Below, in pieces: positions 46,615 through 56,185 of a DNA stretch of 64,000 nucleotides. Within the stretch, counting starts at the first letter, position 1. Every line of letters starts with the position of its first letter. The position numbers were made by a program, and so were the translations under genes. The notes beneath the pieces are model-generated. The model searched no databases. It saw only the letters and a list, made by a program, of their open reading frames with translations, and was not told the origin of the DNA. Source of the stretch: Haloarchaeobius salinus (GTDB taxonomy: Archaea > Halobacteriota > Halobacteria > Halobacteriales > Natrialbaceae); the NCBI RefSeq assembly GCF_024464185.1, contig NZ_JANHAU010000005.1, positions 186,001 to 250,000 of the forward strand, written 5' to 3'.

Positions 46615-47724
46615 TCACTCGTCGTCGACGAGGGTGTGCTCGGTGCTGCTCTCCTGCGGCCCGGTCGCGGCGTCACGGATGGCCTGCTGGAGCCGGACGG
46701 TCCACTGGCCTTCCGAGAGCGGTACGGGCATCGGCTCGCCCGCCTCGATGGCCCTGGCGGTCTCGTCGTACTGGTAGAAGTGGCCGTTGAGCTGCTTCTC
46801 GGACTCCCAGCTGCCGTCACGTGCGCGACGGGCGACCGCCCCGAGGTTCTCGAGCGTCGAGCGCCCCCGGGCGAGGACCTCGTCGGCGTTCTTCATCGCA
46901 CGGGCCTTCGAGGAGGCCTTGTAGTCGCGTTCCAGCGGCACGAGCGACTGCGAGACGAGGTCGACGACGAGCGAGCCCTCCTCGCCGTGAACGTACAGCG
47001 AGCGGTGCGGGACCGTCCCCGAGAGCATCGTCGCCGAGCAGAGCCGGCCGTCGCCGGTCGGGTACTGGATCGTCGCGCCATCGTAGCCGAACTCCATCTC
47101 GTACTCGCCGCCGAGGGTCGTCGTCGCCTGCACGGCGTCCTCGTCCCGGGGGTAGCCGCCGACGTTCAGCAGGATGTACAGCGGGTGGGGGAGTCCCTCC
47201 TCGAACTCGCCCCCGACCAGCTCGAAGCTCCACTCGCCACGGTTCGGCACGTCGGGCCGGGTCGACCCGGTGTACAGCAGGTCGACTCCCCGGATGGTCC
47301 CCAGCTCGCCGGCTTCGATGCGTTCGCGGGCCTCCCGTATCGCCGGGCCGAACAGGTGGTTGTGGACGACCGACGCCGGCACGTCGTTGGCCTGGGCGGC
47401 GTCCGCGATGTCCTCGACGGCCCGCACGGTCTCCGTCACGGGTTTCTCGATGAGCACCGGGATGCCGCGCTCGATGGCGGTGACGGCGATGTCGCGGTGG
47501 GTCCTGACCGGCGTGCAGACGTGGAGCCAGTCGAGGGACTCGCTGTCGAGCATGTGGTCCAGGTCGGTGTAGGGCGTGATGGCGTGCCGGCGGGCCGCCG
47601 CCCGGGCCGCCTCGCCGTCGAGATCCGCGATGGCAACGAGTTCGGTCCGTGGGCAGGCCGAGAGGCCGGAGAGGTGGGTCTCCGAGACGGTCCCGGCACC
47701 GACGACTGCTGTCGTGAGTGTCAT
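46615..47724 (-). CDS. Gfo/Idh/MocA-family sugar dehydrogenase (third)
   Basis: A 369-residue NAD-dependent oxidoreductase. The Rossmann motif AVVGAGTVSETHLSGLSACP is followed by HVCTPVRTHRDIAVTAIERG and VLIEKPVTETVRAVEDIADA. The C-terminal domain contains VVHNHLFGPAIREARERIEA and a long insert (NRGEWSFELVGGEFEEGLPH). It is more distant from the two WbpB-like enzymes and has no aminotransferase partner, so a plain sugar oxidation or reduction is likely. MTLTTAVVG is taken as the start since GGTAG lies just before it; an ATG 12 bp upstream is possible. A TAACGA variant box lies 30-35 bp upstream. Confidence 0.87.
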   Translation of the reverse strand: MTLTTAVVGAGTVSETHLSGLSACPRTELVAIADLDGEAARAAARRHAITPYTDLDHMLDSESLDWLHVCTPVRTHRDIAVTAIERGIPVLIEKPVTETVRAVEDIADAAQANDVPASVVHNHLFGPAIREARERIEAGELGTIRGVDLLYTGSTRPDVPNRGEWSFELVGGEFEEGLPHPLYILLNVGGYPRDEDAVQATTTLGGEYEMEFGYDGATIQYPTGDGRLCSATMLSGTVPHRSLYVHGEEGSLVVDLVSQSLVPLERDYKASSKARAMKNADEVLARGRSTLENLGAVARRARDGSWESEKQLNGHFYQYDETARAIEAGEPMPVPLSEGQWTVRLQQAIRDAATGPQESSTEHTLVDDE

Positions 47725-47750
47725 GCTACCTGCCATGGACCGTGGCACGG

Positions 47751-47822: not shown

Positions 47823-48413
47823 CTACGACCCGTGGACGAGCCTGCGGAGCCCGCCGGCCCGACGCCGCAGCCAGCCGATCCCCGGGAGCCCGTCGCGCCA
47901 CCAGAGCATCGTCGTGGTGGCCAGCAGGAGCAGTTCGAACGCGAGGTACCGTCGACCGACCGGCCCGGTGAGGAACGCGAGGAACTCGCGGTGCTGCTCG
48001 AGCAGGTGGGCCAGCGCCGGGCTGTCGGGCTGTCCCGTCGCCGTCGGCGTCAGCGGCCAGAGCAGGAAACTGGTGTCGAATCCGCCGCCGAAGACGCCCG
48101 ACGCCACCACGTCGAGCGGCAGGTGGCTGAGGTAGCCGACGCCGAACGCGACGCCCACCGCCCTGGCTCGACGCCCTCGGGCGAACAGGCCGACGACGAG
48201 GACGACGGGGACCGCGACGAGCAGCGAGTGCGCGAGCGAACGGCCGCCGGGCAGCACACCGACTCCCCACGACAGCGGCTTGTCGACGAGATCCGGGAAC
48301 AGGGCACCGACGGCCACTGCAACTGCGGCGGCGTCGGTCGGTCGACCCCCTCCCACCCGGCTTCCGAGACTGTACGCGAGGTACGCGACCGCGACGTGCT
48401 CCCAGGGCCACAC
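47823..48413 (-). CDS. YdjM/LexA-regulated-type membrane-bound metal-dependent hydrolase
   Basis: A 196-residue membrane protein. WPWEHVAVAYLAYSLGSRVG is the signature start, with the metal histidine. AVGALFPDLVDKPLSWGVGV holds the FPDxxDK motif, then GRSLAHSLLV and GYLSHLPLDVV, which supply further His and Asp ligands. Three or four membrane helices are visible. The family is predicted to be a phospholipase-like hydrolase. It starts with GTG 2 bp after the stop of the DUF1616 gene, so the two form an operon. Confidence 0.85.
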   Translation of the reverse strand: MWPWEHVAVAYLAYSLGSRVGGGRPTDAAAVAVAVGALFPDLVDKPLSWGVGVLPGGRSLAHSLLVAVPVVLVVGLFARGRRARAVGVAFGVGYLSHLPLDVVASGVFGGGFDTSFLLWPLTPTATGQPDSPALAHLLEQHREFLAFLTGPVGRRYLAFELLLLATTTMLWWRDGLPGIGWLRRRAGGLRRLVHGS

Positions 48414-48415
48414 GG

Positions 48416-49483
48416 TCAGCGGCCCCCCGGGCTGGACCCGGTCCCGGCGACACTGGGTAGCCGACCGGCGATACGTTCCCCCTCGTCGTCCTCCCCATCG
48501 TCCGCACCGTCACCGGCCTCTTCGACCGACAGCCAGAGGTAGAGCTGGTGGGCTGCGGTATCCGGGCTCGGGTTCGTGGCGACCTCGTCATCGTAGACGT
48601 AGTAGCTCAGCCGCAGGGACTCGCCGAGCAGGTCGGGAGTGACGGAGAGCTCGCGGACCACGCGCTCGCCCGCCGGCACGGTCACGGTCTCGCGTTCGAG
48701 CTGGCTCCGCTGGACGACCTGGTCGGACGGACCGATCCGCTCCACCACCGCGACGACGGTGTACGTGGTGCGAGCCCCCTCGTCGTTCTCGAAGAGCAAC
48801 GAGGCGTCCACGGACTCGTCGACGGTCACCGACCGCGGGTAGTCGGCGGCGACGTACTCGCCCGAGTCGTTCTCGGTGACGAGCGTGACGGTGGTGTGTG
48901 CGGCGTCCGGACCGGGTGCGGCGAGCCCGTGGCCGACCGACGCGACCGCGACCAGCATCGCCAGCAGGAGGACGACGTCGAGGCGGTCGAACCGACCCCC
49001 GGTGACGAGGGTGCGTGGATCGACGATCCCGTCGCGTCGTTCCGGCGGGTAGCTTCGTCGCCGGATGTAGCCAAGACCTGCACCGACCAGCGTCCACGCC
49101 ACGAGCAGCTCGAGGAACGGCACGGTGGCGAGCCCGGCCGGGAACAGAGACGAGAGCACCAGGGTACCGAGGACGACGAGCGCGACGCTCGCACCGACGG
49201 CGACGGCCAGCCGTTCGACGCGGTCGAGACTCCCTGGGTCCGTCGCGTCGGCCGCACGGACCGGCAGCAACGCGGCGACCAGTGCGTAGCCCGGGGCGAA
49301 GGTGACGACCGGGACGCCGACGATGGTCCGCCAGATCACGCTCTCGAGCACGGCGAGCAGCACGGCCGCTGCGAGGACGTAGCCGACGAGCAGCGCGAGG
49401 TCGTACGAGTACCGGGGCGCGGACTCGCCCCGGGCCGTCTCCCTCGCGGTCGGGTTCTCCTCACCGACGTGGGCGTCGCTCAT
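48416..49483 (-). CDS. DUF1616 membrane protein
   Basis: A 355-residue protein. Four membrane helices in residues 20-170 (LALLVGYVLAAAVLLAVLES, FLELLVAWTLVGAGLGYI) and the phrase VVTFAPGYALVAALLP are the DUF1616 hallmark. A further helix (VVLLLAMLVAVASVGHGL) precedes an extracytoplasmic beta domain of about 130 residues (TTVTLVTENDSGEYVAADYP). DUF1616 proteins are frequent in archaeal surface-glycan loci; their role is unknown. The ATG giving MSDAHVGEEN is the first credible start. The acidic tail of about 30 residues is variable. Confidence 0.85.
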   Translation of the reverse strand: MSDAHVGEENPTARETARGESAPRYSYDLALLVGYVLAAAVLLAVLESVIWRTIVGVPVVTFAPGYALVAALLPVRAADATDPGSLDRVERLAVAVGASVALVVLGTLVLSSLFPAGLATVPFLELLVAWTLVGAGLGYIRRRSYPPERRDGIVDPRTLVTGGRFDRLDVVLLLAMLVAVASVGHGLAAPGPDAAHTTVTLVTENDSGEYVAADYPRSVTVDESVDASLLFENDEGARTTYTVVAVVERIGPSDQVVQRSQLERETVTVPAGERVVRELSVTPDLLGESLRLSYYVYDDEVATNPSPDTAAHQLYLWLSVEEAGDGADDGEDDEGERIAGRLPSVAGTGSSPGGR

Positions 49484-49642
49484 CGTCGGGGTCGGTCGCG
49501 GGTCGTCGGGACGCTCGATGGGGGGCTGGCGCTGTCGATTCGGGTCACTATCTCGCTCTCTGGGGCGACCGTCGCATTGTAATGAGACGCCTACTCGCCA
49601 CTGCCGTCGGGGTGAGGCGGAGGAATCGACGAAACGGCGCGA

Positions 49643-49652
49643 ATAACAATCC
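49643..49652 (+). promoter_or_regulatory. TAACAA promoter box (ATAACAATCC)
   Basis: TAACAA lies 26-31 bp before the ATG of the flavin reductase gene. Confidence 0.65.
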
Positions 49653-49674
49653 GTCCAGTGAGTGATGTCGCTGC

Positions 49675-50205
49675 ATGGCAGGGACACCCGTCCAACCGGA
49701 GACGTTCAAAGCCACGCTCTCGAACAGCCCGTCCGCGGTCACGGTCGTCACCGTGTCGGGCGACGAGGGTACCGACCCGCACGGGATCACCGTCAGTTCC
49801 TTCGCCAGCGGCTCGCTCGAACCGCCGCTCGTCGTGGTCGGCATCGACCGCGAGAGCGAGACCCACGAACGACTGACCGGCGACGAGACCGGGTTCTGTG
49901 TCAACCTGCTCGCGGCCGACCAGCGCGATCTCGCCGAGCACTTCGCCGGCATCACCGACGTTGGCGACCCGTTCCGGCGGTCCCACACGGCGAGTCGGTC
50001 GGGCGCACCGGTGTTCGACGACGCCGTCGCCTTCCTCGACTGCGAGCACGTCGAGACCGTCGGGCTCGGCGATCACGTGCTCCACGTGGGACGGGTCGTC
50101 GATGCGGCCGTGCTCGACGCCTCCGCGCCGCCGCTCACCTACTGTCGCGGCGAGTGGGGGACGGTGACCGAGGACCTGCCGACGTGGCGACGGGTCGGCT
50201 CCTGA
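49675..50205 (+). CDS. flavin reductase-like FMN-binding protein
   Basis: A 176-residue split-barrel protein. FKATLSNSPSAVTVVTVSGD, DPHGITVSSFASGSLEPPLV (FMN-binding serine and threonine region), FCVNLLAADQRDLAEHFAG and CEHVETVGLGDHVLHVGRV are the family motifs. It would reduce FMN or FAD with NAD(P)H for a partner oxygenase. It is convergent with the MBL protein gene, 51 bp from its end, and both genes carry TAACAA boxes. No monooxygenase gene of the usual kind is adjacent. Confidence 0.9.
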   Translation: MAGTPVQPETFKATLSNSPSAVTVVTVSGDEGTDPHGITVSSFASGSLEPPLVVVGIDRESETHERLTGDETGFCVNLLAADQRDLAEHFAGITDVGDPFRRSHTASRSGAPVFDDAVAFLDCEHVETVGLGDHVLHVGRVVDAAVLDASAPPLTYCRGEWGTVTEDLPTWRRVGS

Positions 50206-50256
50206 GCTGTCCGCTCCCCCGAAGACGAGGTCGTACGGACCCCCTGCACCCAACGC

Positions 50257-51615
50257 TCAGGCGTGGAAGTAGTTCATGCAGTAGTACACCGGTCGCTCGT
50301 AGACGTCGGGCTCCTTCGCGAAGTGGACGTGGGAGCCGATCTGGGCGTTGTTGTAGTGAGCGTGGGCCGGTCCCTGCAGGATGCGCTGCAGGAGACGGGG
50401 GTCGATACGCATCCGGACGTACTCGTCGACCTCGGCCGCCTCGTCGGACGAGAGGTACTCGATGCCGTCACCATGGAGCGACAGGGCGGCCGTCGTGTCC
50501 TCGACGAGGTCGAGCAGGACGGTCGTGTCGCTCTCGAAGCCGATCCCCCGGCGCTTCTCCTCCATGTGGTCGTACGCCACCGGGAGCAGTTCCTGCATGT
50601 CCTCCAGGGTGGGCATCTCGTCGTCGTGGTAGTCGAACGACCGGTCCGCGAGCTCCTGGTCGACGTACGCCCGCTTCCGCTCGGGGTCGACCGGCGTGTA
50701 CGGTGCCGACTGGGTCCCGGTCTCGAGGTCGAACGCCTCCTCGCTGTTGAGCAAGATGCAGGTGGAATCCTCGGGGACGTTCTCGCTCCCCTCGAAGTAC
50801 TCCTTCGCGTCCGCCCGACGCATCACGCCGACGTACTCGTTCAGGTCCGAGAGCGGCCCGGCGAGCGTGTAGCTGCCCGCAAAGGGCATGTAGTAGTCCG
50901 GTTCGAACACCTGGACGAACGACTCGGCGTCCTGGCACATCTCGACGGCGACCTCCTCGGCGGCCTCGAGGCGTTCCTCGTGGGTGTAGTCGAGCATGCA
51001 CTGCGGGTAGAAGTTCGCCGCACCGTACTGCATCAGCAGCATGTCGACCTCGCCGTAGCGGTCGAGCACGCGCTGTGAGGCGGCGGCGGTCATCGGCCAC
51101 CGGCAGTCGTTGGCGTTCACGAGGACGTGCTCGCCGTCGTCGAACACGCCCATGGAGTCGATCTGGGTCGACCCGTCGGTGCCGCCGGTCACGTCGTCCA
51201 TGAACCAGCCGCAGCCGAAGTACTTCCCACAGACCTCCGGGTCGCAGTCGTCCGAGGCCAGCACGTTCAGGTGGAGGTCGTCGCCGAGGTGCATCCGCTC
51301 GTCGTGGGGCAGTTCGATGACGTCGAACCCCCATCGACGCAGGTTGTCGGCGAGGAAGTCCCACTGGTAGTCGTGGACGATGACCGGCGTGTCGGTGTCG
51401 AGGCGCTGGAGCGTCTCCGGATGGCAGTGGTCCGGGTGGATGTGCGAGACGTAGATGTAGTCCACGTCCGCGTAGTCCTCCGGTTCGAACGACAGCGGCG
51501 GGTAGTGGGCCCACGAGCCGTAGAACGCCCCGTCGACGAGCCAGGGGTCACAGAGGACGCGGGTGTCGCCCTCCTCGACGACGACGCTCGACGACTTCAG
51601 GTGTCTGAGTCGCAT
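50257..51615 (-). CDS. MBL-fold metalloenzyme related to CMP-Neu5Ac hydroxylase
   Basis: A 452-residue protein. The N-terminal MBL part has MRLRHLKSSSVVVEEGDTRV and the metal motif YVSHIHPDHCHPETLQRL. LVNANDCRWPMTAAASQRVL provides the later aspartate. The C-terminal part includes GPAHAHYNNAQIGSHVHFAK, ending YYCMNYFHA, with several histidines. The length and C-terminal half resemble the catalytic part of CMP-N-acetylneuraminate hydroxylase, but the Rieske iron-sulfur domain is absent. A diiron hydroxylase or hydrolase acting on a nucleotide sugar is a reasonable reading of the context. The ATG chosen is 27-32 bp from a TAACAA box. Confidence 0.75.
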   Translation of the reverse strand: MRLRHLKSSSVVVEEGDTRVLCDPWLVDGAFYGSWAHYPPLSFEPEDYADVDYIYVSHIHPDHCHPETLQRLDTDTPVIVHDYQWDFLADNLRRWGFDVIELPHDERMHLGDDLHLNVLASDDCDPEVCGKYFGCGWFMDDVTGGTDGSTQIDSMGVFDDGEHVLVNANDCRWPMTAAASQRVLDRYGEVDMLLMQYGAANFYPQCMLDYTHEERLEAAEEVAVEMCQDAESFVQVFEPDYYMPFAGSYTLAGPLSDLNEYVGVMRRADAKEYFEGSENVPEDSTCILLNSEEAFDLETGTQSAPYTPVDPERKRAYVDQELADRSFDYHDDEMPTLEDMQELLPVAYDHMEEKRRGIGFESDTTVLLDLVEDTTAALSLHGDGIEYLSSDEAAEVDEYVRMRIDPRLLQRILQGPAHAHYNNAQIGSHVHFAKEPDVYERPVYYCMNYFHA

Positions 51616-51638: not shown

Positions 51639-51648
51639 GCATTGTTAC
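51639..51648 (-). promoter_or_regulatory. TAACAA promoter box (GTAACAATGC)
   Basis: On the minus strand TAACAA lies 27-32 bp upstream of the MBL protein ATG. Confidence 0.65.
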
Positions 51649-56184: not shown

Positions 56185-56185
56185 A
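56120..56185 (+). CDS. short upstream ORF (21 codons) coupled to glmS
   Basis: The peptide begins MYTLTFLQHGPTDRH. Its stop shares one base with the glmS ATG (TGATG), so a ribosome ending here can restart directly on glmS. It follows the leader hairpin. A regulatory leader is the likely reading; whether it is translated is untested. Confidence 0.4.
   Translation: MYTLTFLQHGPTDRHTGSEGD

Follow-up and report, generated by a model that had tools for sequence, protein, structure and literature searches.

The window, i.e. the whole 64,000-nt stretch of Haloarchaeobius salinus DNA analysed here (G000:C5:186001-250000), encodes on its minus strand (50257..51615) a 452-residue MBL-fold protein that is CMAH-like but has no Rieske domain and carries a three-cysteine insert, and what is new is this triad of cysteines that it has instead of a Rieske domain. 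Judged from its sequence, the protein is likeliest a dinuclear oxygenase, and we see about an even chance that it is, in full, an oxygen-dependent N-acyl-sugar hydroxylase of the CMAH/CmlA kind, in which the cysteine insert would replace the Rieske domain and the neighbouring flavin reductase would not be the electron donor. The sequence-only reading of this locus had proposed a CMAH-related, Rieske-free protein working together with that reductase as a two-component oxygenase; the kinship of the MBL domain, the missing Rieske domain and a CmlA-like metal site stood up to the analysis, while the two-component system did not.

The gene is single-copy in the window's genome, and its open reading frame could start as early as 51642, the 452 residues being counted from a conserved Met. 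Its product matched Lactamase_B_3 (E 1.3e-7) and Lactamase_B_2 (E 2.6e-7) in Pfam, where no Rieske match was found at E ≤ 1, and yielded a full-length model of moderate quality (pLDDT 68). The previously noticed HIHPDHCHPE stretch is present and contains the HxHxDH metal motif (residues 58-63, 51427..51444, minus strand). At E ≤ 1e-3, matches were found in 58 of 292 haloarchaeal genomes, 32 of which had strong ones (34 places, E ~1e-111 or better) and the remaining 26 only weak or partial ones. Profile A1 comprised 34 haloarchaeal copies and omitted a split gene (L043), a fragment (L056) and a locus at the same place as L005 (L067); L078 was excluded because its ORF resembles a UPF0173-type protein. 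Split and fragmentary copies, one with an internal stop, were observed at G217:C12:3239-4605, G010:C1:42150-42536 and G096:C64:26014-26154, which suggests repeated loss of the gene.

CMAH, the CMP-Neu5Ac hydroxylase, combines a Rieske and an MBL domain, and strict CMAH uses cytochrome b5. When A1 was compared by hhalign with a haloarchaeal Rieske+MBL protein (L037, Rieske domain at Pfam E 4.4e-11), the two aligned over nearly the full length (427 columns, the C-terminus included; 99.6%, E 1.2e-24) with the triad segment falling in a gap, and so the CMAH likeness claimed earlier for the C-terminal half as well was borne out. Animal CMAH was matched in the MBL part only (97.85%, E 6.6e-13), a lead and not a clean test, because the CMAH sequence used was not taken from a database; in that domain this CMAH sequence and the window protein share HxHxDH, D170-C171 and a PFAG segment. 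Measured by the strict definition of CMAH, the window protein shows the HxHxDH-bearing MBL domain and a C-terminal region like that of CMAH, but lacks the Rieske [2Fe-2S] domain and has the three-cysteine insert instead. Three actinobacterial plasmid proteins (L087-L089) have the MBL domain in common with it (26-32% identity, tblastn) but, unlike it, have a C-terminal Rieske motif and no triad. Their order, with the MBL domain first and the Rieske motif last (L087:8013-9566, L088:7944-9533 and L089:7944-9494), is the reverse of that in L037 (L037:7484-9364), which also gave a weak C-terminal DUF1858 match below the Pfam cut-off. In the literature searched, no relevant report on Rieske-less CMAH relatives was found.

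An alignment and profile of 29 diverse relatives (A4) defined the metal site, its invariant residues including H58, H60, D62, H63, D153, N169, D170 and A246. Among them, D153 (51157..51159, minus strand) is an acidic residue lost in both decayed paralogues described below and a candidate for the fourth ligand; in the N169-D170 pair (51106..51111, minus strand), D170 was aligned by hhalign to an Asp of CmlA-type proteins that we take as the probable bridging ligand; and A246 (50878..50880, minus strand) takes the position that in zinc hydrolases is filled by the last metal His. A4 aligned with a set of five plasmid-encoded CmlA-type proteins (A6) from residue 2 to A246, where the alignment ends (98.7%, E 4.7e-16), and it scored 97.4% (E 1.1e-11) with one CmlA-type protein versus 9.0% (E 0.0037) with one UlaG; by this profile comparison the MBL domain is judged much closer to the CmlA-type diiron hydroxylases than to UlaG. 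In PMC7846560, the last His is described as replaced by Ala482 in CmlA, and as a residue count along the 4jo0 alignment led us to assign this position to A246, the Ala is a feature common to CmlA and the window protein. That article gives, for iron-binding members without the fourth His, Glu377 in CmlA and Asp184 in 3BV6, UlaG having Asp184 as well; hhalign placed the CmlA Glu377 segment on a variable loop, where no counterpart was found. Thus HxHxDH, the putative bridging Asp and the Ala replacing the last His all recur from CmlA/FrsH in the similar MBL domain of the window protein, which differs from them in its triad and SCP2-like C-terminus and in the absence of the N-terminal region of ~240 residues of CmlA, its residue 2 aligning with position 246-250 of the CmlA-type proteins.

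A metal hydrolase of the UlaG/SaxA type, e.g. a surface-sugar deacylase in which the cysteines would bind a structural zinc, has to be weighed here, as the UlaG/UPF0173/SaxA hydrolases have the MBL fold and HxHxDH in common with the window protein, which also has the Lactamase_B_2/B_3 matches. Among profile matches in the PDB, SaxA (E 1e-8) ranked between FrsH (E 3.4e-11) and CmlA (E 3.9e-8), and in the fold comparison with VIA a putative hydrolase came out best (3rpc, Z 19.0, 238 aligned, 3.8 Å), followed by CmlA (Z 17.7, 242 aligned, 4.3 Å) and FrsH (Z 16.5, 242 aligned, 4.4 Å). These best VIA rows amount to a tie, and the fold search was dropped as a discriminator between hydrolase and hydroxylase. 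The hydrolase is opposed by the negligible score of UlaG itself, by the invariant Ala where UlaG/UPF0173-type proteins have the last metal His, by the absence of the fourth His and by the close homology to Rieske-bearing proteins, which implies redox chemistry, and we consider it rather improbable, albeit the most serious rival. Zinc-hydrolase ligands, which had been named beforehand as evidence against an oxygenase, were not seen; of the diiron site fed by reduced flavin that had been envisaged, the site is retained as closer to CmlA than to zinc hydrolases, and the feed is not.

The triad insert (residues 122-135, D-x-C-D-P-x-x-C-x5-C; 51211..51252, minus strand) has its cysteines at C124, C129 and C135 following D122, sits between a core strand and D153, and was present in 32 of 34 haloarchaeal rows. 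A wide comparison of 56 proteins, from which near-identical and repeated viral contigs and the truncated L106 were omitted, found it in 44 (32 haloarchaeal and 12 viral) and not in 12, namely four Rieske-bearing proteins, six viral ones with neither feature and two decayed haloarchaeal copies; none of the 56 had the Rieske domain and the triad together. The viral triads included D/N variants, D122 being kept in 10 of 12 and D125 replaced by Asn in eight. The three cysteines of the triad are the only ones present in all 44 triad-type proteins, as compared with 40 for C171 and 36 for C22. C171 was considered as a further part of the cysteine site and its candidacy was weakened, as it is Val in four triad proteins and the CMAH sequence used above also has Asp-Cys there. 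In the AlphaFold model the triad region is poorly defined, largely with pLDDT < 50.

Taking these residues together, we propose that HxHxDH and D170 would hold the two metals of a dinuclear, probably diiron, site, with the place of the last His left empty by Ala246, as in CmlA; that the three-cysteine insert, which lies near the metal motifs in sequence, may bind a metal or an Fe-S centre; and that electrons would be relayed via this centre from a general carrier such as ferredoxin. An oxygenase of the same CMAH-like kind might alternatively use the triad only structurally (zinc or disulfide) and have its dinuclear site fed directly by a soluble ferredoxin, and the six viral relatives that keep the metal motif with neither Rieske domain nor triad favour such an arrangement, since they indicate that the triad is not needed in all members. 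The surroundings of the viral members were searched for a distinct Rieske gene, and the one motif match obtained looks spurious. Near the start of one of the neither-type viral MBL genes, and overlapping it, lies a small ORF with two Cys-x2-Cys pairs and no Pfam match (L085:5699-6004). The mutual exclusion of triad and Rieske domain, and the joint loss of triad and metal ligands in the decayed pair, count against a purely structural triad, which we hold to be unlikely.

The decayed pair consists of second MBL copies in genomes G074 and G210, each beside a normal copy in the same genome, which have kept a full reading frame and lost the metal ligands and all three cysteines (L039:9693-11138 and L040:8781-10151), possibly for new non-enzymatic roles. 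The 32 normal copies have 82 invariant residues, of which 13 are altered in both decayed ones (H63, D122, C124, C129, F133, C135, G148, S149, Q151, D153, N169, I426 and R441), and each decayed copy is also without further parts of the metal motif. The two are sisters in the tree (100/98) and therefore represent one natural knock-out, not two; at the level of sequence the pair links the triad to the metal site, without proving the triad's role. With CmlA-type proteins on the far side of the tree, the Rieske-bearing proteins fell outside the clade of triad and neither-type proteins (94/92), and the neither-type viral proteins formed one nested group (99/95), the triad label costing three changes. 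Long branches lead to L037 and to the actinobacterial proteins, with poor support between them (86/14), so a switch from Rieske domain to triad is plausible and not shown.

The gene convergent with the MBL gene (49675..50205, plus strand) does encode a flavin reductase, as had been stated (PF01613, Flavin_Reduct, E 3.7e-34), and a two-component oxygenase in which the diiron site of the MBL protein receives reduced flavin from this genuine reductase would fit the adjacency and convergence of the two genes and the same box class upstream of both. The adjacency survey that had been suggested came out against it, as a reductase was near the MBL gene in one of 38 loci by tblastn and phmmer, or one of 39 when L090 was added. 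Close reductase homologues (E ≤ 1e-30), found in 14 of 292 haloarchaeal genomes, are absent from most MBL-bearing genomes, and only three of the 14 gave an MBL-family match, namely G000 of the window, G245 with the two genes ~30 kb apart, and G010 with a C-terminal MBL fragment on another contig. The shared promoter-like box, TAACAAT, does lie upstream of both genes, at 51641..51647 on the minus strand for the MBL gene and 49644..49650 on the plus strand for the reductase gene, but is not specific to the pair: the window holds seven copies versus 0.22 expected (34749, 40350, 46363, 49644, 51641, 53463 and 53552), starting at -31 before the reductase, -32 before the MBL gene, -33 before a PKD-protein gene and at differing distances upstream of three further genes. 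In many other loci, TAACAAA- or TAACGAA-like boxes are found at a similar distance upstream of the MBL gene, and the Natrinema loci have a TATA-like sequence instead. The box belongs to the locus and not to the MBL/reductase pair in particular, and haloarchaea may use it as an unusual type of promoter element for genes of surface glycans. We regard flavin supply by this reductase as very improbable, and the reductase looks like a chance neighbour and not a dedicated donor.

Flavodiiron proteins have an HxExDH motif and a flavodoxin domain, and some combine MBL diiron and flavin reductase domains, a precedent for reading the MBL protein and the reductase as a flavodiiron-like O2 or NO reductase; the window motif, however, is HxHxDH, Pfam gave no flavodoxin match and the reductase is no conserved neighbour, leaving this reading hardly any credence. 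The recurrent neighbours of the MBL gene are others: a DUF1616 gene (48416..49687, minus strand) in eight of 39 loci, a YdjM family gene (47823..48413, minus strand) also in eight, a Gfo/Idh/MocA oxidoreductase gene (46615..47748, minus strand) in nine at ≥52% identity, the window included, and a GT2 glycosyltransferase gene in 10. The DUF1616 ORF overlaps the start of the reductase gene, and its true start probably lies inside this ORF. In six comparable loci (L002, L039, L040, L044, L045 and L090), the MBL gene is followed directly by DUF1616 and YdjM, while in the window the reductase lies between the MBL gene and DUF1616. As all other protein clusters were confined to seven or fewer of 38 MBL loci, no universal redox partner is encoded near the MBL gene.

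The C-terminal domain (residues 300-452, 50260..50718, minus strand), when modelled alone with 24 sequences, reached pLDDT 92 and gave a modest match to an SCP2-like fold. Its best Foldseek matches were SCP2-like (top E 5.4e-3), and VIA-align returned SCP2 (3bdq, Z 8.9, 103 aligned, 3.2 Å), parts of the methyltransferases SpnK (Z 8.7) and MycE (Z 7.4), and C-terminal parts of alkylsulfatases (Z ~7), all being middling structural scores.

For the substrate, the window itself offers a sugar locus, with two DegT aminotransferases, a UDP-glucose dehydrogenase type protein, a nucleotidyl transferase, a flippase, a FemAB-like protein, glycosyltransferases and a GlmS-like protein at 56185. NeuB is the nonulosonic-acid synthase. 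Two scans of viral contigs gave seven and 24 MBL loci, seven of the 24 being contigs from the first scan. On these viral-classed contigs (L080-L086 and L099-L122), the MBL family lies near NeuB and other sugar genes, and some have adjoining portal- or terminase-like genes, recognised by eye; two viral MBL queries found no match in a phage genome collection. NeuB-like genes occurred in 18 of the 24 loci and NeuB family genes in all 14 whole viral records chosen from them, lying no more than 4.2 kb from the MBL gene in 13, with the exception of G616 (a weak match ~35 kb away), and the NeuB and MBL frames overlap in L103, L104 and L118. In the seven viral records of at least 80 kb, random placement would put a gene equally near in 3.5 to 9% of cases per record; given the relatedness of the records and the clustering of such genes, these figures should not simply be multiplied. 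The basal haloarchaeal member (L055:432-10213) belongs to a pseudaminic-acid-type cluster comprising the MBL gene, PseG (196.9 bits, cut-off 153.55), a PseC-like transaminase below its cut-off, NeuB and a cytidylyltransferase. Among haloarchaea, NeuB was found in six of 32 MBL genomes versus 5.9 expected (54 of 292 genomes) and was not found in the window's genome, and a sialic-acid pathway was therefore rejected for this genome, where a nonulosonic acid as substrate is not established. The N-acyl sugar proposed earlier thus gains indirect support from the NeuB/Pse clusters of viral and basal haloarchaeal relatives and none from a NeuB of this genome; given those clusters and the local sugar genes, an N-acyl sugar of surface-glycan biosynthesis, or the activated form of it, would be a reasonable guess.

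Carried to the family as a whole, it is conceivable, though we would not call it probable, that haloarchaea and phages harbour a lineage of CMAH-type monooxygenases, descended from Rieske-bearing ancestors, in which a centre bound by cysteines, possibly Fe-S, inserted next to the dinuclear site has replaced the Rieske domain and serves to hydroxylate the N-acyl groups on nonulosonic acids or on surface sugars related to them. A 2016 review (PMC4819959) records no CMAH structure to that date and treats the hydroxylation of an unactivated methyl group by CMAH as being of mechanistic interest. With a Rieske-free, single-chain relative, the catalytic MBL domain could be examined in isolation, and it would become clear whether a small cysteine site can replace a Rieske domain. 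According to PMC6137143, nonulosonic acids are not routinely detected in archaeal protein glycans, and an archaeal or phage hydroxylase acting on them would therefore open a testable corner of surface-glycan chemistry. If the proposal is true, it would mean a new route of electron delivery in MBL-fold oxygenases and a new archaeal glycan modification.
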